A DNA stretch of 32,471 nucleotides from Phycisphaerae bacterium. GTDB taxonomy: Bacteria > Planctomycetota > Phycisphaerae > UBA1845 > PWPN01. This document shows, piece after piece, positions 293-13,605 of this stretch. The position numbers and the translations under genes are program-made. The DNA lies in NCBI GenBank assembly GCA_012729395.1, contig JAAYDF010000222.1, forward strand, positions 1-32,471. Direction: 5' to 3'. Under the pieces are notes generated by a model, which had not been told where the DNA came from, searched no databases, and was given only the letters and a program-made list of their open reading frames with translations. Within the stretch, counting starts at the first letter, position 1. Each line of letters begins with the position of its first letter.

Positions 293-1663
293 ATGTCCGA
301 TGCACCTGTAGAGGCACCTCCATCAGTAAGGCTCGATATGCCGAAGCAGACCGGCGGCCGACTGCTTTCCCTCGACGTGTTTCGCGGGATCACCATCGCG
401 GGCATGATCCTGGTCAACAACCCGGGGAGTTGGGGCAGGATCTACGCACCGCTGGGCCATGCGAAGTGGAACGGCTGGACGCCGACGGATCTCGTCTTCC
501 CATCGTTTCTGTTCATCGTCGGCGTGGCCATGACTTTCTCGTTTGATCGCCGATCCGCCGACGGGGCGGCCCGCTCGCGGCTGTTGGGTCATGTGATTCG
601 ACGCACGCTGATCCTGTTCGGTCTGGGGATGATCATGTACAGCTTCCCGGACTGGCGGCTGATGGCCCCGTATCTTCTCACGATCGCCGGTCTGTGGCTG
701 CTGTTCCGGCAGGAGCCGCCGCTATCCTGGCCGGCGGAATCCTCATCCCGGCTGCTCAAGATCATGGCCTGGGTAGTGCTCGGAGCGGCCGTTGTCTGGT
801 TTGCCGCCGACTTCGCGTACTTCCAGGTGCCGCACCCGCCGGCCACACCCAAGACGGCGCCGCTGCGCGTGCCAGGCGTGCTGCAACGCATCGCGGTCTG
901 CTACTTCCTGGTGGCGATGATGATGATGTACCTGGGCGTGCGCGGGCGAGCGGTGCTGACCGCGGGCATTCTGCTGGGGTACTGGTGGATCATCAAGCAC
1001 CCCTGGGCGATCACGGTGCCGGAGGTCTACCCGGCAGGCGCCCGGCCGGAGGGCATCCTGCACTTCTGGCTTGACGCGAAGCTGCTAGGCGCCCACGTGT
1101 ACTCCGACCTGCCCGATCCCGAGGGGATCCTCAGCACGCTGGGTGGCGTGTGCACCTGCCTGCTGGGCGTGCTGACGGGCACATGGCTGCGGAGCCGGCG
1201 CAACGATGCCGACAAGCTCATCGGCCTGTTCTTCGTGGCCAACCTGCTCATGGTGGCCGGGCTGTGGATGAACTACAGCGTGCCGATCAACAAGAAGATC
1301 TGGACCAGCTCCTACGTCCTGCTGGCCGGCGGGATCGCGATGCACGTCCTGGCCATGTGCTATTGGCTGATCGACGTCAAAGGCTGGCGCCGCTGGTCGG
1401 CGCCGTTCATGGTCTTCGGGACCAACGCCATCCTCGTTTACTTCGCGTCCGGTATCGTGGGCCGCCTGCTGGGTTTCTATACCTTCGGCGTCGACGCTCC
1501 TTCGCTGCGGGCTTGGCTTTACGCCAAGGGTTTCGCTGCTCACTTCTCCGAGACGGGATACGGTCCGTACAACGCCTCGCTGGCGTTCGCCCTGGCGTAT
1601 GTGCTCTTCTGGCTGATCGTCCTGATCCCGCTGTACCGCAGGCGGATTTTCCTCAAGGTTTGA
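293..1663 (+). CDS. Membrane acyltransferase, NagX/DUF5009 (HGSNAT-like) family
   Basis: A 456-residue polytopic inner-membrane protein. The N-terminal segment (SLDVFRGITIAGMILVNN, then a WTPTDLVFPSFLFIVG stretch) is the signature of the family related to heparan-alpha-glucosaminide N-acetyltransferase. Family members are thought to move acetyl groups from cytoplasmic acetyl-CoA to amino sugars across the membrane. The inner motif LRVPGVLQRIAVCYF is also typical, and there are about ten hydrophobic segments. I chose the ATG at 293 because GGAG lies six bases upstream; an in-frame TTG at 281 is less likely. It stands alone, well separated from the next gene. The substrate cannot be read from the sequence. 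It could take part in recycling or modifying amino-sugar polymers, but that is inference from the family. Confidence 0.85.
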   Translation: MSDAPVEAPPSVRLDMPKQTGGRLLSLDVFRGITIAGMILVNNPGSWGRIYAPLGHAKWNGWTPTDLVFPSFLFIVGVAMTFSFDRRSADGAARSRLLGHVIRRTLILFGLGMIMYSFPDWRLMAPYLLTIAGLWLLFRQEPPLSWPAESSSRLLKIMAWVVLGAAVVWFAADFAYFQVPHPPATPKTAPLRVPGVLQRIAVCYFLVAMMMMYLGVRGRAVLTAGILLGYWWIIKHPWAITVPEVYPAGARPEGILHFWLDAKLLGAHVYSDLPDPEGILSTLGGVCTCLLGVLTGTWLRSRRNDADKLIGLFFVANLLMVAGLWMNYSVPINKKIWTSSYVLLAGGIAMHVLAMCYWLIDVKGWRRWSAPFMVFGTNAILVYFASGIVGRLLGFYTFGVDAPSLRAWLYAKGFAAHFSETGYGPYNASLAFALAYVLFWLIVLIPLYRRRIFLKV

Positions 1664-2131
1664 CGAGCCTGTCACTCGCCTCTCGCGGGGCCACATGGGG
1701 CCAGGTGCCGCGGGGGCGGTCTGGTCCAGCCGCGGCCCTGGATCCGCAGTTGAAGGTGGCTGCTTCTTCAGGCATTGCAGGGCCGGAGCCGGTCCCCGTT
1801 TCGCTCGCGTTCCCGCGTTTGCGCACGTCTCATACTCCCCGGATATCTGATGGCGCCGGTTCGGGTGGTATGCCGGCTAAACTGCTGTAACGTCCTGTGT
1901 TGTCGGTGTTTATGGGTGTCTTGGGGGCGTGGTGATCTGTTTCGTGTTCATGTCTGATGAAGAATTCATGTTGATTTCATGTTCGGCTCGCCAAAATGCC
2001 AAGTGCGGAGTCTGTGAGTCGCGGTTGAGATCAAGGTACGGCGCGAGAAATCGGGAGGATCGGGCTGTTGAGGCCGCGCCCTGGTGGGGAAGGCGGGTGT
2101 CTCTCGTTGCCGATTGGTGAGGAGGTTGAAC
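1664..2131. other. Intergenic region, no gene seen
   Basis: About 470 bases between the acyltransferase and the PEP-CTERM gene. The second half is more AT-rich than the flanks and presumably carries the promoter for 2132. I found no convincing sigma-70 or sigma-54 promoter and no strong terminator. The only obvious feature close to the gene is a GAGGAGG ribosome-binding site at 2119-2125. Confidence 0.5.
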
Positions 2132-2761
2132 ATGAGGCTGTTAATGGTTCTTGGAGTGGTTGGGGTGATTGCGGGCCCGGCGCTGGGCGGGATCGTGATC
2201 AGCGAATGGATGTACAACGGGCTGGGCGATGGCAAAACCGGCGAGTACATCGAGTTCACGAACGTCGGGGCCGAGTCGGTTGATATGACCGGTTGGAGTT
2301 TCGACGACAGCAGTCGGCTTGCCGGCACGGTCAGCCTCAGTGCGTTCGGTGTGGTCGCGCCTGGTGAATCGGCGATCCTGACGGACGATTCCGTGGCGGT
2401 TTTCGAGGCGGTTTGGGGTTTGGACGGCGTGAAGATCGTCGGGGACAACACGGCCAATCTGGGTCGCAGCGATGAGATCAACCTCTACGATGCGGCGGGC
2501 AACCTGGTCGATCGGTTGACCTACGGCGACCAGGACTACCCAAGCACGGTGCGGACCCAGAACCAAGGCTGCAACATACCGGCCGCGGATTACGATTACA
2601 CCGTTGTCCAGACAGGCTGGGAGTTGGCGACGGTTGGCGATGCGTACGGTTCTTGGACGTCCTCGCGTGGTGAGATCGGGAGCCCCGGGCAGGTTCCCGA
2701 GCCGGCCACGCTGGTCTTGCTTGTGGGGGGCTTGGTGCTGCTGGCGCGGCCCAAGCGCTGA
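2132..2761 (+). CDS. PEP-CTERM sorted lamin-tail-domain protein
   Basis: A 209-residue exported protein. The N-terminus is a signal peptide (about residues 1-19, ending GPALG). A lamin-tail (LTD) fold follows, recognisable from ISEWMYNG, the EYIEFTNVG strand, VDMTGWSFDD and NLVDRLTYGD. The C-terminus is a PEP-CTERM signal: VPEPAT, a short hydrophobic helix, then a basic RPKR tail. Such proteins are sorted by an exosortase, which is not in this window. The start at 2132 is supported by GAGGAGG six bases upstream. LTD domains are small immunoglobulin-like modules found on surface proteins, often with CotH kinases. The LTD is nearly duplicated in the next gene at both DNA and protein level. Function beyond surface display is unknown. 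Confidence 0.88.
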   Translation: MRLLMVLGVVGVIAGPALGGIVISEWMYNGLGDGKTGEYIEFTNVGAESVDMTGWSFDDSSRLAGTVSLSAFGVVAPGESAILTDDSVAVFEAVWGLDGVKIVGDNTANLGRSDEINLYDAAGNLVDRLTYGDQDYPSTVRTQNQGCNIPAADYDYTVVQTGWELATVGDAYGSWTSSRGEIGSPGQVPEPATLVLLVGGLVLLARPKR

Positions 2762-3039
2762 CGGTCACGCCGGGCAGCGGCAGGGCGTCGCATCGGGCTT
2801 TCGTGGTGCGGGCGTTCCTCTTGTGTGTGTGCAGCCGGAGGGAACTGTACCGCCGAGAGGGCGTCCGGCCGCGAGCGCCGGCTCGCGGCATGGAGAGGTT
2901 ATATCGGGTTCCGTGGTGGGGCAGTCGCTTGAGCTGTGTGGCTTGGATGGATGGGCTGCTTTGCCGCGGAGTGATCTGATGTGTGTGGGGTGACTTGGGT
3001 GGTCGATGCTCGTCGGCGTCGGTGTCGAAGGAGGCGAAG

Positions 3040-5448
3040 ATGAGACGGTTGATGTTTCTCGCGATGCTTGTTTCGGTTGTTCGCGTGGCGTCTGGGCAGA
3101 TTGTGATCACCGAATGGATGTACAACGGTTCCGGGACGGGCAGCACGGGGGAGTTCGTCGAGTTCACGAACGTCGGGACCGAGTCGGTTGATATGACCGG
3201 TTGGAGTTTCGACGACGACAGCCGCATTGCCGGGACCATCAGCCTGAGTGCCTTTGGAGTGGTCCTCGCTGGCCAATCGGTGATTCTGACGGATGAACCG
3301 GCCGAGGATTTCGCCACGATATGGAGCTTGAGCGGGGTCAAGATTATCGGCGGCAGCACGGCGAACCTGGGCCGCAATGACGAGATCAACCTGTACGATG
3401 CGGGGAGCAATCTGGTCGACCGGCTGAGTTATGGCGACGAGACCTATCCGGGTACGGTGCGGACTCAGTACCGGAGCTGCAACATACCGGCCACGGGTTA
3501 CAGTTACACCCAGGTGCAGGCGGGTTGGGTCTTGGCCTCGGAGGGGGATTCGTTTGGTTCGAAGGTTTCGACGCGAGGGGAAGTCGCCAGTCCCGGACGG
3601 ATTGTGAATTGTTCAAAGTACGATCTTGACTGCGACAGCGACGTGGATGTCGTGGATGTCAATGCTTTCCGCCCTTGTCTTGCGGGATCGGGTGTTTTTT
3701 ACGATCCGCTGCCGTCCGGTTGCTCCATGACGCCGGATGCGGAGGGTTACATCGGGGCCGATCTCGACCGCGACGAAGACGTGGATCAAGATGACTTCGG
3801 CATGCTTCAGCGATGCTACAGTGGTCCCGGGGTTCCGCTGGATCCATCGTGTCTTGAGAGCTCGGGTGGCAGCGGCACAGCGGAGATCATCCTGAACGGC
3901 AATTCCATCACCGTGACGGGCGACGGTGTGACCGTGGACGGTACGAAGGCCACGGTGATAGCGGCGGGCACATATCATGTGACCGGTGCGCTGGCCGACG
4001 GGCAACTCGCGGTCAACGCCAACACCGAGGGCGTCGTCGAGCTGATCCTGGATGGGGTCAACATCAGCAACTCCACGACCGCTCCGATATGCATCCTGAG
4101 CGCCGACGAGGCTTCCATCGTCCTGGCGGCGGGGAGCGCCAACTATCTTTCCGACCCAACGACCTACGTCTTCGAGAATCCCGAGGAGGATGAACCCAAC
4201 GCGGCTCTGTTTAGCTACGATCGCCTGACCATCTCGGGCAGCGGGTCGCTGACGGTGACCGGGAATTACAACGACGCGATTGCCAGCAAGGATGAGCTGA
4301 TTATCACGGGCGGCACGATTACGGCGAACGCGGTGGATGATGGGATTCGGGGCAAGGATTACCTGTTCGTGACTGGTGGGACCATCACCGTCGTCGCGGG
4401 CGGGGATGGTTTGAAGTCAGACAATGAGGAGGATACCGCGCTGGGATTCATCTCCATCGGGGGCGGTTCTCTGAATATCACCTCGGGTGGCGACGCCATC
4501 ACAGCCCAAACCAGTGCCACCGTTACCGCGGGGAGTCTCGTTCTGAAATCGGGTGGGGGTAGCAACGTCACCATCCCTGATACCTTGTCCGCCAAGGGCA
4601 TCAAGGCCCCCGTCAGCGTGGTCATCGAGGGCGGGACGTTTTCGATCAACGCCGCCGATGACGCCGTGCACTCCAACGACAGCATGACCATCAACGGCGG
4701 CACCTTCAGCATTGCCACCGCGGACGATGGCTTCCACGCGGACAATACGCTGGTGATCACCGATGGGACCATCAACATCACCAAGTCGTATGAGGGCATC
4801 GAGAGCAAGGCGCTTACCATCAACGGCGGAGAGATCCATACTGTATCGAGCGATGACGGCATCAATGGAGCCGGTGGGGTGGATGGCTCGGGCACCTGGC
4901 CCCCCGGACCCGGACAGCCGCCGGCCGGAAGCGGGTCTCTCGCGATCAACGGGGGGTATATCGCGGTGATTGCCGCCGGCGACGGCATTGATGTGAACGG
5001 CAATATCGTGATGACCGGAGGCACGGTGATCGTCCACGGTCCGACCTCGGACAACAACGGGGCCATGGATTACGATGGTTCGTTCAATATCAGTGGTGGG
5101 TTCCTGGTGGCGGCCGGGAGTGGCGGGATGGTCCAGACCCCGAGTACCTCGTCGACGCAGCGATCGGTTCATCTGAGGTACCAGTCAAGCCGGCCGGCCG
5201 GCACGCTGCTCAACATTCAGCGGTCGGGCACCAGTCTCCTGACCTTCGCGCCCTCGAAGGCGTATCGGTCGGTGGTGTTCTCCGCACCGACGCTTGTTTC
5301 GGGATCCGGCTACAGCGTTTATAGGCAGGGGAGCTGCTCAGGCACCCTGAAGGACGGTCTGTACACAGGAGGAACCTATACGCCCGGCACGTTGTCCACG
5401 ACGTTCACGATATCGAACATTGTGACGACCGTGAACAACCTGCCCTGA
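3040..5448 (+). CDS. Secreted LTD / dockerin-like / Cthe_2159 beta-helix protein
   Basis: An 802-residue modular extracellular protein. Residues 1-19 are a signal peptide and 20-185 a lamin-tail domain. Residues about 190-275 hold two EF-hand-like loops (DLDCDSDVDVVDV and DLDRDEDVDQDDF), as in planctomycete dockerin-like modules. From about 280 to 700 is a Cthe_2159-type carbohydrate-binding domain: parallel beta-helix turns with repeated GGTI/INGG, DDGI, GDGLKSDN and SAKGIKA motifs. A conserved tail of about 100 residues follows. The Clostridium thermocellum family founder binds cellulose-like and pectic polysaccharides, and some turns here carry Asp-rich ladders suited to calcium. The start at 3040 has AAGGAGG five bases upstream. 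No PEP-CTERM signal or membrane anchor is visible. A close paralogue is encoded at 9476. Binding target is unknown. Confidence 0.85.
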   Translation: MRRLMFLAMLVSVVRVASGQIVITEWMYNGSGTGSTGEFVEFTNVGTESVDMTGWSFDDDSRIAGTISLSAFGVVLAGQSVILTDEPAEDFATIWSLSGVKIIGGSTANLGRNDEINLYDAGSNLVDRLSYGDETYPGTVRTQYRSCNIPATGYSYTQVQAGWVLASEGDSFGSKVSTRGEVASPGRIVNCSKYDLDCDSDVDVVDVNAFRPCLAGSGVFYDPLPSGCSMTPDAEGYIGADLDRDEDVDQDDFGMLQRCYSGPGVPLDPSCLESSGGSGTAEIILNGNSITVTGDGVTVDGTKATVIAAGTYHVTGALADGQLAVNANTEGVVELILDGVNISNSTTAPICILSADEASIVLAAGSANYLSDPTTYVFENPEEDEPNAALFSYDRLTISGSGSLTVTGNYNDAIASKDELIITGGTITANAVDDGIRGKDYLFVTGGTITVVAGGDGLKSDNEEDTALGFISIGGGSLNITSGGDAITAQTSATVTAGSLVLKSGGGSNVTIPDTLSAKGIKAPVSVVIEGGTFSINAADDAVHSNDSMTINGGTFSIATADDGFHADNTLVITDGTINITKSYEGIESKALTINGGEIHTVSSDDGINGAGGVDGSGTWPPGPGQPPAGSGSLAINGGYIAVIAAGDGIDVNGNIVMTGGTVIVHGPTSDNNGAMDYDGSFNISGGFLVAAGSGGMVQTPSTSSTQRSVHLRYQSSRPAGTLLNIQRSGTSLLTFAPSKAYRSVVFSAPTLVSGSGYSVYRQGSCSGTLKDGLYTGGTYTPGTLSTTFTISNIVTTVNNLP

Positions 5449-5724
5449 CCGGGGAATCGCAGAGAGCCGGTGGCGAGCGTGTCAGCCTCATTGGGCCTCA
5501 GATGCGGCCCCTGGGAGGATTAGGTGGATTGGCGGAAGCGTGAGGGAGGGTACTTCTCTATCAGCCAAGGGAAGGGGTCACGACGTCCGTAGCGAAGGGC
5601 TCGGTACGACAGAGGCAGGCGTGTGCCGGTGTGTGGAGCTGTCGCTCGCGTTTCACTCCCATGGCGGCGACTCGATACTCGCTGGGTTGGGCCGGCTCGC
5701 CCGCTTGCGACAGGTGGCAAGGAT

Positions 5725-6426
5725 ATGCGTGTGAACCATCAGATGAGGTCAGGCGGTTTGGGTTTCACTCTCATTGAAGTCCTGGTGGTCATAGCCATCA
5801 TCTCTTTGCTGATCAGTATTCTGATTCCTTCGCTGGCGCGTGGCCGCGAGAATGCTCGCTCGGTAGTCTGCCGCAGCAACCTCTCGCATCTGGGCCGCGC
5901 CATGCTGATGTACGGTCAGGAATTCCGCGGCATGCTGCCGTACGAGAATCGGCCGGACCCCGCCGATCCGTTACAGCACGGGCGTCTTTGTTGGTATGAC
6001 GCGGTGGACCGGTATCTCAAAACCGCGGAGAACCAGAAGGGGGTGAAGATCTGCCCGACGGTCGAGCGTGACGACCCGCAGCGCATCGAGGGCTACCGGA
6101 TGAACAGCAAGCTGGCGGAGTCCAACGCGGCCAGTCCGTACTATCGTCCCTATCGGAAGGTCGATACTCTGAAACGTCCCTTCGAGACGGTGATGCTCTT
6201 CGACGCGGACGTGGGAGGCGAGGTGGTTTCGCTCAAAGGGCGCTGGCGGATCAGCCGGGATGACGTCAACTACCGTCACAACGACGCCACGAACCTTCTT
6301 TACGTCGAAGGAAACGTGGAGAACAGTAAGCGTCGTCCGCTTCGCCAGCGATCCATCAACAACACACCGGTGATCTGGCAGCCACCCGATCTGGGTGCCT
6401 GGGATCCTGATCCGGAGACCGAGTGA
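5725..6426 (+). CDS. Type II secretion pseudopilin-like protein, H-X9-EG type
   Basis: A 233-residue protein with a class III signal: a short basic leader, then G13 | FTLIE, followed by a hydrophobic helix (VLVVIAIISLLISILIPSLA). A prepilin peptidase would cut before F14. The body resembles the large planctomycete family of pseudopilin-like proteins whose C-terminal part carries an H-X9-DG motif. Here it reads RHNDATNLLYVEGNV, so the D is replaced by E. The ATG at 5725 is chosen, though a GTG at 5731 is also possible with AAGG at 5719. Its stop shares a base with the next start (TGATG), so it is probably translated together with the VTC and DUF4956 genes. Its role here is unknown; it may help to assemble or export the neighbouring surface proteins (inference). 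Confidence 0.82.
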   Translation: MRVNHQMRSGGLGFTLIEVLVVIAIISLLISILIPSLARGRENARSVVCRSNLSHLGRAMLMYGQEFRGMLPYENRPDPADPLQHGRLCWYDAVDRYLKTAENQKGVKICPTVERDDPQRIEGYRMNSKLAESNAASPYYRPYRKVDTLKRPFETVMLFDADVGGEVVSLKGRWRISRDDVNYRHNDATNLLYVEGNVENSKRRPLRQRSINNTPVIWQPPDLGAWDPDPETE

Positions 6427-7169
6427 TGATCGTGGCAGCCCCCGTCGCCTCCGGCACTTTTGCCCGTCGCGTGGAGCATAAGTACTGGCTTCCACCCGGT
6501 GAGCTGGATGCCACGATCGAACGGTTGCAGACCTTCGTTCCCATTTTTCGATATTCATCGTGCTGGTGGGCCAGTATCCGCACGGTGTGTTTGGACACGC
6601 CGGAGGGGCAGTGCTACCGGGATTACCTCGATGGCCTGGCTGTTCGGTGGAAGGTTCGCATCCGGCAGTACGGCGCCCAAGGCCGGTTTGGGGACCGGTG
6701 CTGGTGCGAGATCAAGATGAAGAACCGAGGAATCAGCTCGAAGCGGCGGTTCAATTCCCCGCTTTCGGAGGTGTGCCGGTTGGTGGATGGTGGGCGGATC
6801 GCCGAGGAGAGCATTGCGGACCAAGGCCCGGAGACCCTCGAGGTCTTCCGGCGGATTGCCTGGCTGATTCGATCCAAACGGTTGCGTCCGAAGGTGCGCA
6901 TCGACTATGAACGCCTTTCCTTCCAGAATGGCCCGGACGACAGTGTGCGTATCACGCTGGATCGGAATCTTTGCTTTATGGCGGCGGGGCGCCCGCAACG
7001 TGGAAGCATGCAGGGGCTGATCCTGGAACTGAAGTACAACGGTTTGGCGCCGCCATGGTTTGACGAACTTCACGACTACATTTCGCTTCACCGGGCTCAC
7101 CGTTTCTCGAAGTATGCGCGGGCGGTCGGTGCCCTGGACAGTGCGGTTTTATCAGGAGCCCTCTCATGA
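6426..7169 (+). CDS. VTC-domain (polyphosphate polymerase-like) protein
   Basis: A 247-residue soluble protein with the whole VTC triphosphate-tunnel fold. The charged strands that line the tunnel are in order: EHKY (17-20), KVRIR (76-80), EIKMK (95-99), KRR (106-108), PKVRIDYER (155-163), VRITLDR (174-180), ELKY (201-204) and SKY (228-230). In yeast the related Vtc4 domain makes polyphosphate from ATP. Bacterial relatives are annotated as polyphosphate polymerases, but their activity is mostly unproven. The start ATG overlaps the stop of the pseudopilin gene, with GGAG eight bases upstream, and its own end overlaps the DUF4956 start (ATGA). This suggests one transcript and coupled translation. 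All expected basic and acidic residues are present, so it is probably active. Confidence 0.88.
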   Translation: MIVAAPVASGTFARRVEHKYWLPPGELDATIERLQTFVPIFRYSSCWWASIRTVCLDTPEGQCYRDYLDGLAVRWKVRIRQYGAQGRFGDRCWCEIKMKNRGISSKRRFNSPLSEVCRLVDGGRIAEESIADQGPETLEVFRRIAWLIRSKRLRPKVRIDYERLSFQNGPDDSVRITLDRNLCFMAAGRPQRGSMQGLILELKYNGLAPPWFDELHDYISLHRAHRFSKYARAVGALDSAVLSGALS

Positions 7170-7726
7170 GCATGACCGATCACGTTTTGGATGCCCATCC
7201 TTGGTTGGACAGGCTGTTTAGCGATATTGCCGGCACTTCGGGCGAGGACTACGGCGTCGAGTCGGTGATAGCTCGGATGGTTTCAGCCGCCCTGGTTGGC
7301 TGGCTTATTGGCCAGGTCTATCGTCGAACGTTTACCGGCGTGAGGTTCAATCCCGCTTTGCCGGACACCCATGTTCTACTGGCCTTGGGAGGAGCCCTTA
7401 TTTGGCTTGTGGTTGGTAACAGCATCGTGCGCGCGTTTGGGCTCGCCGGGACGGTCGGATTGATTCGCTACCGAACCATCGTGCCCGACCCCAAGGACAC
7501 GACCATTCTGCTGTTCAGCTTGGTCATGGGGATGGCCTGCGGGATTGGACTGCTTGTAGTAGCTTGGGTGGGCACGCTTATTCTCTTGATGGCGATGGTT
7601 TTGCTCCATTGGGGGCATAGGAGAGTCCGCCAGACCGAGTCGGAGAACACCAGCATCATTGAGTTGTTCAAAGCGGATTCGCCGCCGGAGAAGAAGGCGG
7701 AGCAACCGGGGAAGGATGTCTTGTGA
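7166..7726 (+). CDS. DUF4956 integral membrane protein
   Basis: A 186-residue inner-membrane protein with about four hydrophobic segments: residues near 30-48, 70-90, 105-125 and 128-150. The family signature RAFGLAGTVGLIRYRT followed by DPKDT is present between the second and third helices; related proteins read R(A/T)FGL(V/A)G..(I/L)IR(F/Y)RT..DP.DT. Its biochemical role is unknown. DUF4956 proteins commonly sit beside VTC-domain genes, and here the start overlaps the VTC stop by four bases (ATGA), with AGGAG seven bases upstream. The two products are therefore likely made in similar amounts and may form a membrane complex. The highly charged C-terminal tail is probably cytoplasmic. Confidence 0.87.
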   Translation: MSMTDHVLDAHPWLDRLFSDIAGTSGEDYGVESVIARMVSAALVGWLIGQVYRRTFTGVRFNPALPDTHVLLALGGALIWLVVGNSIVRAFGLAGTVGLIRYRTIVPDPKDTTILLFSLVMGMACGIGLLVVAWVGTLILLMAMVLLHWGHRRVRQTESENTSIIELFKADSPPEKKAEQPGKDVL

Positions 7727-9363: not shown

Positions 9364-9475
9364 AGGCTCGATCGACATGTGAGGCGTATGTGGACGTGTG
9401 TCGGCATTCCAGGCGTGAACCCGTCATGGCGAAGTGGTGTTGGCCGGAGAGATCGGGACGGGTAGGAGCAAGACG

Positions 9476-11248
9476 ATGTGCAGGTCAATGATGATGCGTG
9501 GGTTGGTGTGCAGCGTGTTCTCATTGATGGTTATGGGTGTTGAATGTGTCAGTGACGTTGGGTCTTCGGGCGGTAGCGATACCGGTTCCGTCGACGACTC
9601 GGGCAAGACGGGCGATACGGAGAACCAGCAGGGTGCCGGCCATGAGAGCACGGGCGACTATACTTGGGACAGCTCCGAGGTGACGTTCATCACCTGCGAG
9701 GGTAGCTCGGCGGTGGTGCATGGGGCTGGCGCTACCGCCGTCGGCGGGGTCATCACGATCACTTCTGCGGGGACATACAGCGTCAAGGGTAGTCTGACCG
9801 ACGGGCAGATCATCGTGAATGCGGACAGTAGTTCGCTCGTCAGGCTGGTTCTTAACGGAGTCTCCATTCGCGGCTCCGCGAGAGCGCCCGTGCACGTTTT
9901 GCGGGCGGATAAGGTCGTGATCATGCTTGCGGATCAGACCTCCAACCTCATCGAGGGGGGGACGACGTACGTGCAGCAGGGCACGACGACCGACGAGCCC
10001 AACGCGGCCATTTTCAGTATGACCGATCTGTCCATTTCGGGTAACGGGTCCCTGTCAGTCACCGGCGATTACGGCGACGGCATCACGAGCAAGGACGGGC
10101 TCATTATCGCCGGCGGGACAATCAGCGTGAATACGATCGATGATGGCATTCGGGGCAAGGACTACCTCATCCTGCGCAACAGCACCGTCGACGTGGTCTG
10201 CGGTGGCGATGGGCTGAAATCCGACAACACGGCTGATGCGGCGTTGGGGTTTATCACTGTGCAGAGCGGTTTACTGCATGTGACCTGCGGCGGGGATGCC
10301 ATCACGGCGGAAACGGAGGTCCACATGGCGGGCGGCAATGTGGTCCTGAGCTCGGGCGGAGGTAGTACGGCCACGATTTCGAGCACATTGTCCGCCAAGG
10401 GAATCAAAGCGGGGGTCAACGTGGTCATTGACGGCGGGACCTGCTCGATCAACTCGGCGGAGGACGCCGTCCATTCCGATGACAGCATGACCATCAACGG
10501 CGGCACCTTCACCGTTTCAGCGAAGGATGACGCATTTCGTGCCGAGGCCGTCCTGATCATCAACGATGGGGTCATCAACGTCACCAAGTGCTACGAGGGG
10601 ATCGAGAGCAAGGCCATTACCATCAACGGCGGGAGCATCCAGATCGTGGCCAGCGACGACGCGATCAATGGTGCCGGCGGAGTGGACGGCTCGGGCTACG
10701 CGCGCTGGCCGGGCAAGCCTATGCAAACCGGGAATGCCTCGCTTTCAATACACGGCGGTCACGTCGCTGTGTACTCGACGGGAGACGGCATCGACGTGAA
10801 CGGTGCCATCGTCATGACCGGTGGGACGGTCATCATTCACGGGCCCACATCGAACAATGAGGGAGCCATCGATTACGACTCGTCGTTCAACATCAGCGGC
10901 GGCACGCTGGTGGCGGCAGGGAGTGCGGGCATGGCCCAGGCTCCAAGTACCACGTCGACGCAGCGGTCGGTGCATCTGAAGTATCAGTCGGCCCGGCCGG
11001 CCGGTACTATCATCAATATCCAGCGGTCCGGCAGCAACCTGCTGACCTTCGCTCCGACCAAGACCTACCGGTCGGTGGCCTTCTCCTCACCGGCGCTTGT
11101 CCAGGCTTCTGGATACGGCGTGTACAGGGGCGGCAGTTCAACAGGGACAGTCAAGAACGGTCTGTACTCGGGCGGTGTCTATACCGGCAGCCTATCGAGT
11201 ACATTCAGCATCCAGAACGTGGTCACGAACGTGAACAACCTGCCGTAG
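9476..11248 (+). CDS. Secreted Cthe_2159-type carbohydrate-binding beta-helix protein
   Basis: A 590-residue protein. The first 26 or so residues are a hydrophobic export signal. A low-complexity Ser/Gly/Asp/Thr linker follows (about 28-60), then a Cthe_2159 beta-helix domain (about 65-490) with turns such as IRGKDYL, GDGLKSDN, SAKGIKA and MTINGGTFT. A tail of about 100 residues ends NVVTNVNNLP. It is a clear paralogue of the protein at 3040, alike across the helix and tail, but lacks the lamin-tail and dockerin-like modules. AGGAG at 9464-9468 lies seven bases before ATG 9476. A Cys ends the signal region (GVEC), but Glu at position -1 argues against a lipobox. It probably binds an extracellular polysaccharide and calcium (family inference). 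Confidence 0.85.
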   Translation: MCRSMMMRGLVCSVFSLMVMGVECVSDVGSSGGSDTGSVDDSGKTGDTENQQGAGHESTGDYTWDSSEVTFITCEGSSAVVHGAGATAVGGVITITSAGTYSVKGSLTDGQIIVNADSSSLVRLVLNGVSIRGSARAPVHVLRADKVVIMLADQTSNLIEGGTTYVQQGTTTDEPNAAIFSMTDLSISGNGSLSVTGDYGDGITSKDGLIIAGGTISVNTIDDGIRGKDYLILRNSTVDVVCGGDGLKSDNTADAALGFITVQSGLLHVTCGGDAITAETEVHMAGGNVVLSSGGGSTATISSTLSAKGIKAGVNVVIDGGTCSINSAEDAVHSDDSMTINGGTFTVSAKDDAFRAEAVLIINDGVINVTKCYEGIESKAITINGGSIQIVASDDAINGAGGVDGSGYARWPGKPMQTGNASLSIHGGHVAVYSTGDGIDVNGAIVMTGGTVIIHGPTSNNEGAIDYDSSFNISGGTLVAAGSAGMAQAPSTTSTQRSVHLKYQSARPAGTIINIQRSGSNLLTFAPTKTYRSVAFSSPALVQASGYGVYRGGSSTGTVKNGLYSGGVYTGSLSSTFSIQNVVTNVNNLP

Positions 11249-11320: not shown

Positions 11321-12934
11321 TCATTCGTCAGCGTTCTCGACGCCGAACGTGAGAGTCAGCACGAAGCGCGAGTCGGCGTTGATGTCGGTGTCAGCTTTCC
11401 CGCCGACGGCTTCCATCGCACGGCGAACGAGGGGCAGTCCCAGCCCGCAACTGAGGCTGGTCCGCTTGGTGCGTGCGCTGTCGCCTCGCCAGAATCGATC
11501 AAACACCCGGACGAGGTCGTTCTTCTGGAGCGTGCACCCTGTGTTGATGATCCGGAGCGTGCAGCCTGAATTGCCGTTCTCGCCTACCACGGTGATACGT
11601 CCATCATCAGGTGTGTATGTGACCGCGTTATGCAGGGCGTTAGACAGGACTACCTCAAGGAGTTGCGGATCGGCCGTGACCATGAGGTCGGGGGGGCATT
11701 GGTCATCGAAGACGATTCGCCGCTGCTCAGCCGTACCGCTGACCAGAGACCATTGCCGGGCAAGCACGGGCTTCATGGCAATCAAGTCGAGTTGTGCCTT
11801 GATGTGCCCGGATTCGAGGCGGGCCAGAGTCAGGAGTTTCTCGATCAGGCCCTGGAGGCTCCTGGCCGATTCCAGCGTATCGCCCAGGGCCTGTCGGTAT
11901 TCATCCTCACCGCGTGATCGGCTCAGCGTGATCTCGGCGATGGTGGAGATCTCCGCGGCCGGGGTGCGCAGCTCGTGGGCTACGTCTGCGGTCAGGGCCC
12001 GCTCGCGTTCGAAGGCCTCGTCCAGCCGGCCGAGCAGTCCGTTGAGCTGGTTGACCACCGGCTCGATCTCATGAGGCACGTCGCGTGGCGCGATTCGTTC
12101 CTTGAGGCCCAGTTCGTCCATCGCAGCGATTCTGTGCGCCACGGTGGACAGCGGTCTCAGCCCGCGCGTCACGACGAGCCAGGCGACTCCGGCTGACACC
12201 GCCATCGTGCCGATGGCCGTCACCGCCAGCAGCAATACCAGGAAGTGCAGCTCTCTGTCCATCGCAGCCGTGCTAGCGGCGACAACCGCGGTCAGCTCGG
12301 CGGGTATGCGTCGTGGCGGCCCGGGGCCCATCGACGCGGGGCTTTGGAACCGCAAACCCACGGCGCGGCCCGGCGTGCCGTCGGGTAGCAGAATCCGGGC
12401 AAAGCTCAACTTGCCGGGCGTGGTCTCTAACCGGGGCAGATCCGCCTCACCCAGAGTCGGCGAACGTACCACCAGTGTATCCCTGCCGGTGTTGCGTCGT
12501 CCGCGCGGTTCCCATTCGTCAGGCAGCGAGGGCGGCAGGTCATAGGGGTTGTCCCAATCGAAGGGGAGTAGGTCCGGCGGAAGGGGGGGCGGACCCGACC
12601 GGGCGGTGTCCTCTTCCTCCCGTGGCGCGGATGTGCGCGTCTGACGCCAGGGCGGCAGATGGATCGGTTGGTCGCTCCAGAATTGAAACAGAGCGTCCTG
12701 ACGAAGCTGGCCCGCCGGCAGGCTCGCCGCACGAGTGATGTCAAACTCAGGCCCCCATGGTCCTTGGTGAAACAACAACGCAAGCGAGTTGGCGCTGCTG
12801 GCGAGCGTTTCATCGAACGCCCGGTGAAGCTGGTGCTTCTGGACCATGTAGATGGCGGTGTCTGCCGCTACCAGGAGGGTCGCCAATCCCAGCAACATTC
12901 CGATGATGAGCCTGGATCGCAGCGATCGCATCAT
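11321..12934 (-). CDS. Two-component sensor histidine kinase
   Basis: A 537-residue inner-membrane sensor. Transmembrane helices are at about 9-31 and 230-254. Between them is a periplasmic domain of roughly 195 residues with Pro-rich stretches (near 95-140) and no recognised ligand fold. HAMP spans about 254-308. The dimerisation/phosphotransfer motif AHELRTP puts the phospho-accepting His at 320. The ATP-binding part has an N-box (NALHNAVTY, about 432-440), F-box (VFDRFWRGD) and G2 box (GLGLPLVRR). The G1 box reads INTGC where DxGxG is usual, a change seen in some active kinases of this class. Its ATG overlaps the response-regulator TGA (ATGA), so the pair is co-transcribed. The signal and target genes cannot be read from the sequence. 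Confidence 0.92.
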   Translation of the reverse strand: MMRSLRSRLIIGMLLGLATLLVAADTAIYMVQKHQLHRAFDETLASSANSLALLFHQGPWGPEFDITRAASLPAGQLRQDALFQFWSDQPIHLPPWRQTRTSAPREEEDTARSGPPPLPPDLLPFDWDNPYDLPPSLPDEWEPRGRRNTGRDTLVVRSPTLGEADLPRLETTPGKLSFARILLPDGTPGRAVGLRFQSPASMGPGPPRRIPAELTAVVAASTAAMDRELHFLVLLLAVTAIGTMAVSAGVAWLVVTRGLRPLSTVAHRIAAMDELGLKERIAPRDVPHEIEPVVNQLNGLLGRLDEAFERERALTADVAHELRTPAAEISTIAEITLSRSRGEDEYRQALGDTLESARSLQGLIEKLLTLARLESGHIKAQLDLIAMKPVLARQWSLVSGTAEQRRIVFDDQCPPDLMVTADPQLLEVVLSNALHNAVTYTPDDGRITVVGENGNSGCTLRIINTGCTLQKNDLVRVFDRFWRGDSARTKRTSLSCGLGLPLVRRAMEAVGGKADTDINADSRFVLTLTFGVENADE

Positions 12935-13605
12935 GATTCCGCTCCGAGCACATAGCCGAGGCCGCGCCGCGTCTGAATGAGACTGTTCTGGTCGGGGCGG
13001 TCCAGCTTGCGACGCAGACATCCAATGTACACATCGACGACATTGCTGACCGTCTCCGATCCGAAGTCGTAGAGGTGTTCCCATATCTCGGTGCGGCTCA
13101 CGGTTTCGCCCGCCCGCTGAGCCAGGTATTCCAGGAGCTTGTACTCCATCGCCCGCAGCTCGATCTCCCGTTCGCGGAGCCAGACGCGTCGCTTGGCGGT
13201 GTCAATGCGCAAATCCCCGATCTCGATCACCGGGCTGTGCTTGCCGTAGCGGCGACGGACAAGTGCCCGAATGCGGGCGAGCAGTTCTTCGAAGGCAAAC
13301 GGCTTGACCAGGTAATCGTCGGCGCCCAGATTGAGGCCGGCGACGCGGTCGGCTACGGTGTCCTTGGCGGTGAGAAGCAGAACATGGTCATCACGGCCTT
13401 GCTCCCGCAACCGGCGAAGAATGCTCAGCCCATCCAGGCCGGGCAGCATCAAATCGAGGATGATCACGTCGTACGGGCTGTTCTGCGCATACCAAAGCCC
13501 TTCGTTGCCATCTCCTGTGGCATCGACGACGAAGTCGGCCTCCTTGAGGCCTTTTCGCAGCCAGGTTCGCAGTTTCGCCTGGTCCTCGACGATCAATACG
13601 CGCAT
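12931..13605 (-). CDS. OmpR/PhoB-family response regulator
   Basis: A 224-residue DNA-binding regulator. The receiver domain (1-115) has the acidic pair E7/D8, phosphorylation site D51 (IILDLMLPG), T79 and K101. The C-terminal winged helix (about 128-222) has the usual ELRAMEYKLLEYLA and VVDVYIGCLRRKLD helices and the RRGLGYVL hairpin. It lies directly upstream of the kinase gene and overlaps it by four bases, so the kinase at 11321 is its partner. It is transcribed away from the PSD1 gene at 13905, with a shared upstream region of about 300 bases. Regulated genes are unknown; the surface-protein locus next door is a possible but unproven target. Confidence 0.95.
   Translation of the reverse strand: MRVLIVEDQAKLRTWLRKGLKEADFVVDATGDGNEGLWYAQNSPYDVIILDLMLPGLDGLSILRRLREQGRDDHVLLLTAKDTVADRVAGLNLGADDYLVKPFAFEELLARIRALVRRRYGKHSPVIEIGDLRIDTAKRRVWLREREIELRAMEYKLLEYLAQRAGETVSRTEIWEHLYDFGSETVSNVVDVYIGCLRRKLDRPDQNSLIQTRRGLGYVLGAES

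Follow-up and report, generated by a model that had tools for sequence, protein, structure and literature searches.

Adjacent lamin-tail-domain genes of a Phycisphaerae bacterium are probably old neighbors sharing a short gene-conversion patch

Introduction

A planctomycete protein carrying a lamin-tail domain (LTD) has been proposed as a tether at the outer membrane, with dockerins, in the 'planctosome' model (PMC6461901, in the portion available). A sorting route has likewise been proposed for PEP-CTERM proteins (described in the accessible part of PMC1569441), and proteins of the Cthe_2159 family bind celluloses and polygalacturonic acid, according to the excerpt of PMC6712302. Here we describe two adjacent LTD genes, designated A and B, both encoded on the plus strand of contig C194 (32,471 nt; the whole stretch analyzed is hereafter the window) of a Phycisphaerae bacterium whose genome comprises 370 contigs totaling 5.74 Mb. 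Gene A ends in a PEP-CTERM tail and gene B continues into a Cthe_2159 module. Our analysis indicates that A and B are probably two old genes for LTD surface proteins, placed next to each other, between which a short patch was later copied by gene conversion, and not the products of a recent duplication.

No description of an LTD and Cthe_2159 fusion was found in open-licence full text, where 'Cthe_2159' and 'lamin tail' co-occur, in the excerpts returned, only as separate proteins. The same literature yielded no full-text paper mentioning 'lamin tail' together with 'PEP-CTERM'. A second described arrangement concerns the neighboring genes. A group encoding CotH, a polyphosphate polymerase and a DUF4956 protein has been reported beside Pel loci (available parts of PMC7112168 and PMC12345266), and VTC and CotH genes share a single Clostridium perfringens locus (PMC2879425, in excerpt). 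In the portion of PMC12345266 at hand, the authors state that they found their order of three genes, CotH, polyphosphate polymerase and MgtC-domain protein, nowhere but in Pel loci.

Results

Gene A (2132-2758) encodes a signal peptide, an LTD and the PEP-CTERM tail VPEPATLVLLVGGLVLLARPKR; its listed open reading frame (ORF) starts at 2084, and an ATG with GGAGG upstream lies at 2132. Gene B (3040-5445; listed ORF 2983-5445) encodes a signal peptide, an LTD reaching approximately position 3597, a pair of acidic calcium-type loops (approximately 3620-3860) and a Cthe_2159 module matched by its profile from 3937. Both signal peptides were judged by eye rather than with a predictor. The LTD (PF00932) scored 69.5 bits in A and 61.8 bits in B, both over the Pfam cut-off of 34.3. 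A first-pass annotation of the window had assigned a PEP-CTERM sorting signal to one of the two genes, which holds for A. Its tail scored 16.2 bits with TIGR02595 (slightly above the cut-off of 16) and 24.0 bits in a genome-wide PEP-CTERM scan (above cut-off), although Pfam hmmscan placed it slightly below threshold (19.5 versus 20.7 bits), and the PEP motif, hydrophobic stretch and basic end can all be read in the sequence. The same annotation had the other gene run into dockerin-like and Cthe_2159 parts. The Cthe_2159 assignment stands (PF14262, E 2.1e-95), whereas the dockerin-like part of the window's B gave no match to Dockerin_1 at E<=1; among six B-type proteins, two match Dockerin_1 (best E 0.00018). 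The segment between LTD and Cthe_2159 contains cysteines and carries two acidic loops, whose acidic positions (D195-D206 and D241-D252) are invariant, together with four surrounding cysteines, in all six aligned B-type proteins. By this pattern, the segment is a pair of calcium-binding-type loops, as in type I dockerin, with predicted calcium binding.

AlphaFold models of the two proteins were of modest quality (mean pLDDT 64 for A and 73 for B). The model of A resembles the lamin tail fold, its best and sole PDB match at E<=0.001 being the human lamin B1 tail 3jt0 (probability 1.00, E 5e-4); a PDB sequence search with A returned nothing at E<=0.01. The best matches of the B model were 4peu and 4phb (TM-score 0.84-0.91 by target length), followed by weak matches to lamin tails (E 0.04 and above).

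The annotation had read LTD-coding parts at about 2190-2690 and 3100-3600 as recent duplicates with long near-identical DNA. The two parts are homologous, over an extent that the direct repeat and codon alignment correct to 2132-2689 in A and 3040-3597 in B. These 186 codons (558 nt) align with zero gaps at 73% DNA and 65% protein identity, and an ungapped direct repeat of 300 nt at 2128/3036 is 73% identical. Similarity ends at both module edges, with identities per 50-nt window of 20-32% upstream and 32-38% downstream. At fourfold-degenerate sites A and B are 52% identical (n=62), a level that falls inside the range among B-type LTDs of different genomes (25-62%), window B agreeing with those of genomes G046, G098, G087, G028 and G110 at 62%, 44%, 43%, 46% and 25% of such sites, respectively. 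This level of agreement, with no flank similarity, points to deep divergence and not to a recent copy. The window B LTD protein is 75% identical to its G046 counterpart, from another family, and 73% identical to those of G098 and G087, against the 65% shared with A. A and B share homology across the LTD and differ in their C-termini, and within their own genome each is the nearest LTD to the other: a search with A as query recovered A and B alone at E<=1e-3. The other three LTD matches of the genome all lie in one ORF on contig C228; one of these three matched the A module, at 28% over query residues 18-131, and was dropped as short.

The near-identical DNA is confined to one patch, 38 nt exact (2271-2308) inside 59 nt with one mismatch (2250-2308 in A, 3158-3216 in B, plus strand; coordinates placed by eye), outside which A and B are 60-86% identical per 50-nt window. 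The 20-mer GAGTCGGTTGATATGACCGG has exactly two occurrences in the window (2273-2292 and 3181-3200) and none in 100 shuffles. Codon alignments, run tests and DNA trees were based on 11 chosen LTD sequences. Among codons specifying the same residue in A and B, identical codons ran to at most 19 in succession, against a shuffled mean of 8.4 (p=0.0014); with Met and Trp codons omitted, A-B, a pair named in advance, gave p=0.0028, the lowest of 55 pairs. The exact 38-mer of the patch was detected in eight of 227 fetched loci, all of them copies of the window's own stretch, and is absent from the fetched relatives. A DNA tree of all 558 columns paired A with B (support 87/88). Upon removal of codons 2252-2317, B grouped instead with the B of G046 (92/90) and A fell in an unresolved part of the tree; the grouping of the two B-type LTDs persisted without both patch and signal peptide (88/88), and a tree from codon positions 1+2 resolved nothing around A and B. 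Since the A-B pairing is lost once the patch is omitted, the patch appears to carry the pairing signal. The run test also supports local gene conversion, which is probably the cause of the patch identity.

LTD protein trees were built from 31, 65, 20, 20 (patch removed) and 23 rows, the 20- and 23-row sets being chosen by locus. Sixty-six LTD modules were kept after four short matches were left out (one each in L085, L149, L138 and L081), and the 65-row tree additionally omitted one long-branch row (in L082). The 31-row tree joined B to the B of G046 (91/76), with A adjoining (97/93). In the remaining four trees B belonged to a cluster of four or five B-type LTDs whose internal order was not resolved, with modest inner supports for its position among them. 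In the 20-row set, the best tree constrained to have A and B as sisters was 8.2 log units worse. Taken on these sequence trees, A+B sisterhood is disfavored.

Both architectures occur beyond the window. The B layout was detected in six other genomes (G046, G098, G087, G028, G188 and G110, the last copy being cut by a contig end), at 53-64% identity. As judged from its domains, B is a conserved fusion of LTD, two calcium-type loops and a Cthe_2159 beta-helix that also occurs in other families of the class. LTD-PEP proteins of about 205-270 residues are found in many genomes, and 23 of the 66 kept LTD modules are in ORFs with such a tail by pattern match; three of these 23 (L118, L120 and L126) are in records that we take, from their names, to be of Pseudomonadota. 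With both architectures known outside this genome, module shuffling was not seen happening here, contrary to the initial interpretation. The Cthe_2159 part of B was matched at E<=1e-20 in six of 114 genomes of the order, each of which has an LTD-fused copy, and at E<=1e-15 in one of 392 genomes of a phylum-wide sample, namely its own. Cthe_2159 thus appears rare in the phylum and may have passed between lineages.

Of 69 loci scanned, seven had more than one LTD ORF, and three of these seven consist of an LTD-PEP gene immediately followed by a longer LTD gene: the window, G046 and G188 (contig C23). Most of the loci had been selected through their LTD similarity, and the count therefore does not represent an unbiased frequency. 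The G046 tandem partners are not sisters (approximately unbiased (AU) test, p 0.00015). In the G188 tandem (L196, 8850-11256) the second protein has 537 aa and a calcium-loop-like end and lacks Cthe_2159, and its LTD pairs with that of the first protein (92/84); judging from these sequences, this tandem is apparently independent of the window pair. In G028 and G098 the A-type and B-type genes are on separate contigs.

The window contains a second Cthe_2159 gene (9434-11245, plus strand), without an LTD, which trees placed as sister of the Cthe_2159 module of B with support of 100/100, and of 99/96 and 99/97 when outgroups from plasmid records were included. The G110 copy, covering 22% of columns, was part of the first tree and was left out of those with outgroups. 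AU tests of an arrangement uniting the B-type modules without the second gene were borderline (p 0.044 and 0.051). The two modules share 63% protein identity and 48% identity at fourfold sites, so this duplication is likewise not recent. On these trees, the clear lineage-specific duplication of the window is that of the Cthe_2159 module of B.

Between B and the second Cthe_2159 gene lie, on the plus strand, genes assigned by Pfam to a VTC-domain protein (6423-7166) and a DUF4956 protein with an additional weak MgtC match (7166-7723). The full row in the window reads VTC, DUF4956, a shortened VTC-like ORF and HlyD. In G087 (L198, contig C270), CotH, VTC and DUF4956 genes form a row between the end of a kinase gene and an efflux pair, HlyD and then an outer-membrane efflux protein (OEP), at a locus that was not screened for Pel genes. 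In the segment 8059-9360 of the window, the partial-VTC ORF ends like the start of the G087 HlyD and the next ORF corresponds to the rest of HlyD; the segment looks like the remnant of a VTC-HlyD gene row. A CotH kinase was ruled out as a partner by the lack of any CotH match in the genome.

On the minus strand, a histidine kinase gene (11324-13084) lies next to one for a response regulator with receiver and Trans_reg_C domains (12934-13605). Counterparts of this pair adjoin LTD genes elsewhere: they sit immediately upstream of the A-B tandem in G046 (regulator 77%, kinase 54%) and of A in G098 (83% and 54%), and a more distant pair (38% and 30%) precedes B in G110. A two-component system also borders the CotH/VTC/DUF4956 row of G087. 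G055 has a regulator/kinase pair as well (86% and 57%), in a 13.3-kb stretch where neither A nor B has a match, and the sequence fetched around the G028 and G188 LTD genes gave no kinase or regulator match at E<=1e-8. For A in L066 and B in L141, gene positions come from tblastn.

The pseudopilin gene at 5623-6423 was considered as a partner of B and found unsupported: at E<=1e-8 the pseudopilin query had no match in the B-type loci L066, L068, L141, L142 and L144, a weak match in L142 lying about 5 kb from B, and a prepilin motif (strict, within 600 nt) follows LTD-PEP genes in five of 23 loci, the window being one of the 23 but not of the five. Those five loci, in which a prepilin-type gene follows the LTD-PEP-CTERM gene within 600 nt, are L074, L075, L076, L145 and L147, against an expectation of about 0.004 per locus from motif density. 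Scans of positions 1660-5700 found no sigma-70-like promoter site and four terminator-like sites, uninformative against a shuffle mean of 2.7.

Discussion

The divergence of A and B, the confinement of their near-identity to one patch and the placement of B among B-type LTDs are consistent with two old LTD genes that later exchanged a short tract. Several observations weigh against this reading, chief among them the DNA trees. The full tree makes A and B sisters, and AU tests did not reject their sisterhood on DNA (p 0.173 for codon positions 1+2; 0.367 and 0.157 without the patch) or on protein (p 0.064 for 20 rows; 0.133 without the patch). Neither a joining of A to the A-type LTDs (p 0.096, patch-free protein, 20 rows) nor a single clade of all B-type LTDs (p 0.078 with 20 rows, 0.164 with 23 rows) was rejected. 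A falls beside the B group (94/89 in the 20-row protein tree), apart from the A-type LTDs of G046 and G098, and a duplication inside the B lineage is therefore possible. The p value of 0.0028 in the run test loses significance after correction for 55 pairs. Finally, given the patchy distribution of Cthe_2159, B may have been transferred between genomes, and the way it groups is not necessarily a guide to age.

The alternative that draws most on these points is an older tandem duplication in this lineage, in which A arose from the LTD of B (or the reverse) after B had arrived and then gained its PEP-CTERM tail, the two being true sisters although not recent ones. The pairing in the full DNA tree and the position of A beside the B group speak for it, and no AU test rejects it, but protein and patch-free DNA trees place B with the B of other genomes, the best protein tree uniting A and B is 8.2 log units worse, and the LTD-PEP proteins of similar size in many genomes mean that no new tail is needed for A; we regard this history as possible, with a minor share of the probability. 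It is unlikely that A and B are plain old paralogs whose patch identity reflects a constraint on DNA or RNA, a common codon preference or chance. The third-position G+C of A and B (0.77 and 0.75) is unlike that of most of nine relatives (0.64-0.91), and four other pairs of the 55 reached nominal p values of 0.012-0.035, such runs not being unique, but the window pair had the lowest p value and the 38-mer is absent from the fetched relatives. A recent tandem duplication with module shuffling, as initially annotated, accounts for adjacent genes on one strand and for a 59-nt patch with one mismatch but is contradicted by the strongly diverged synonymous sites, the dissimilar flanks and the B architecture kept in six other genomes, and we consider it highly improbable. 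The annotation had itself stated that it would be refuted if each LTD grouped more closely with LTDs elsewhere, and on this point the trees are divided: in the protein and patch-free DNA trees B joins its B-type counterparts from other genomes while A falls only beside them, and the full DNA tree and the AU results leave A+B standing.

Under the preferred reading of old neighbors with a converted patch, A would count among the many LTD-PEP-CTERM proteins with about 205-270 residues, and a tract of about 60 nt would have been copied from one gene to the other, giving the striking DNA identity. By analogy with the systems of PMC1569441, PMC6712302 and PMC6461901 (each in the part available), both would be secreted surface proteins. 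An exosortase would cleave A at the PEP motif, and A would then reach the envelope or exopolysaccharide; B would bind calcium and an acidic or cellulose-like polysaccharide through its Cthe_2159 module, the common LTD keeping both in the same surface layer. The genome contains two exosortase matches over cut-off, one of which was read and has the Cys, N-x-x-R and H-x-x-x-G motifs described in the accessible text of PMC1569441, and 49 of 51 PEP-CTERM matches, A included, exceed their cut-off. With two exosortase genes present, the two destinations first suggested for the LTD, exosortase sorting for A and secretion for B, are plausible. Dockerin-cohesin docking of B was rejected as a mechanism, as the genome has no cohesin match at E<=0.1 and the window's B no Dockerin_1 match.

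More speculatively, an LTD-PEP-CTERM gene and a directly following LTD gene with a calcium-loop tail could form a recurrent two-gene surface unit, in which the LTD couples an anchored and a polysaccharide-binding partner and gene conversion keeps the coupling face alike; we consider this rather doubtful. If the LTD does couple an exosortase-sorted protein to a secreted polysaccharide binder, this would give bacterial LTDs a testable role. The analysis also corrects a natural misreading, in which a single identical patch is taken for recent duplication of a whole module, and draws attention to the conserved fusion of LTD, calcium-type loops and Cthe_2159.

Compared with described systems, the locus combines familiar and divergent features. 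Like the CotH/VTC/DUF4956 group, the window has adjacent VTC and DUF4956 genes, and G087 has the order kinase-CotH-VTC-DUF4956-HlyD-OEP; the genome of the window differs in its lack of CotH, and no search for Pel genes was made. The 'planctosome' of PMC6461901, as outlined in the portion available, similarly uses a planctomycete LTD protein as an outer-membrane tether with dockerins, but the present genome lacks a cohesin match, and by Pfam neither A nor B contains a peptidase or convertase domain. A shares with the PEP-CTERM proteins described in the available part of PMC1569441 the signal peptide, PEP motif, hydrophobic stretch and basic end, and exosortase genes in the same genome; it differs in scoring slightly below the Pfam hmmscan cut-off, its processing being predicted from sequence. 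Both proteins are over the cut-off for LTD proteins (PF00932), and the nearest structure to the A model is the human lamin B1 tail 3jt0, but A and B are bacterial and have a signal peptide, and past the LTD A has a sorting tail, and B has calcium-type loops and a beta-helix. B matches Cthe_2159 of Clostridium thermocellum (4peu/4phb; PMC6712302, in excerpt) in both Pfam profile and structure, and differs from it in that the module is fused behind an LTD and two loops and continues into a long C-terminal part past the 262-position profile.

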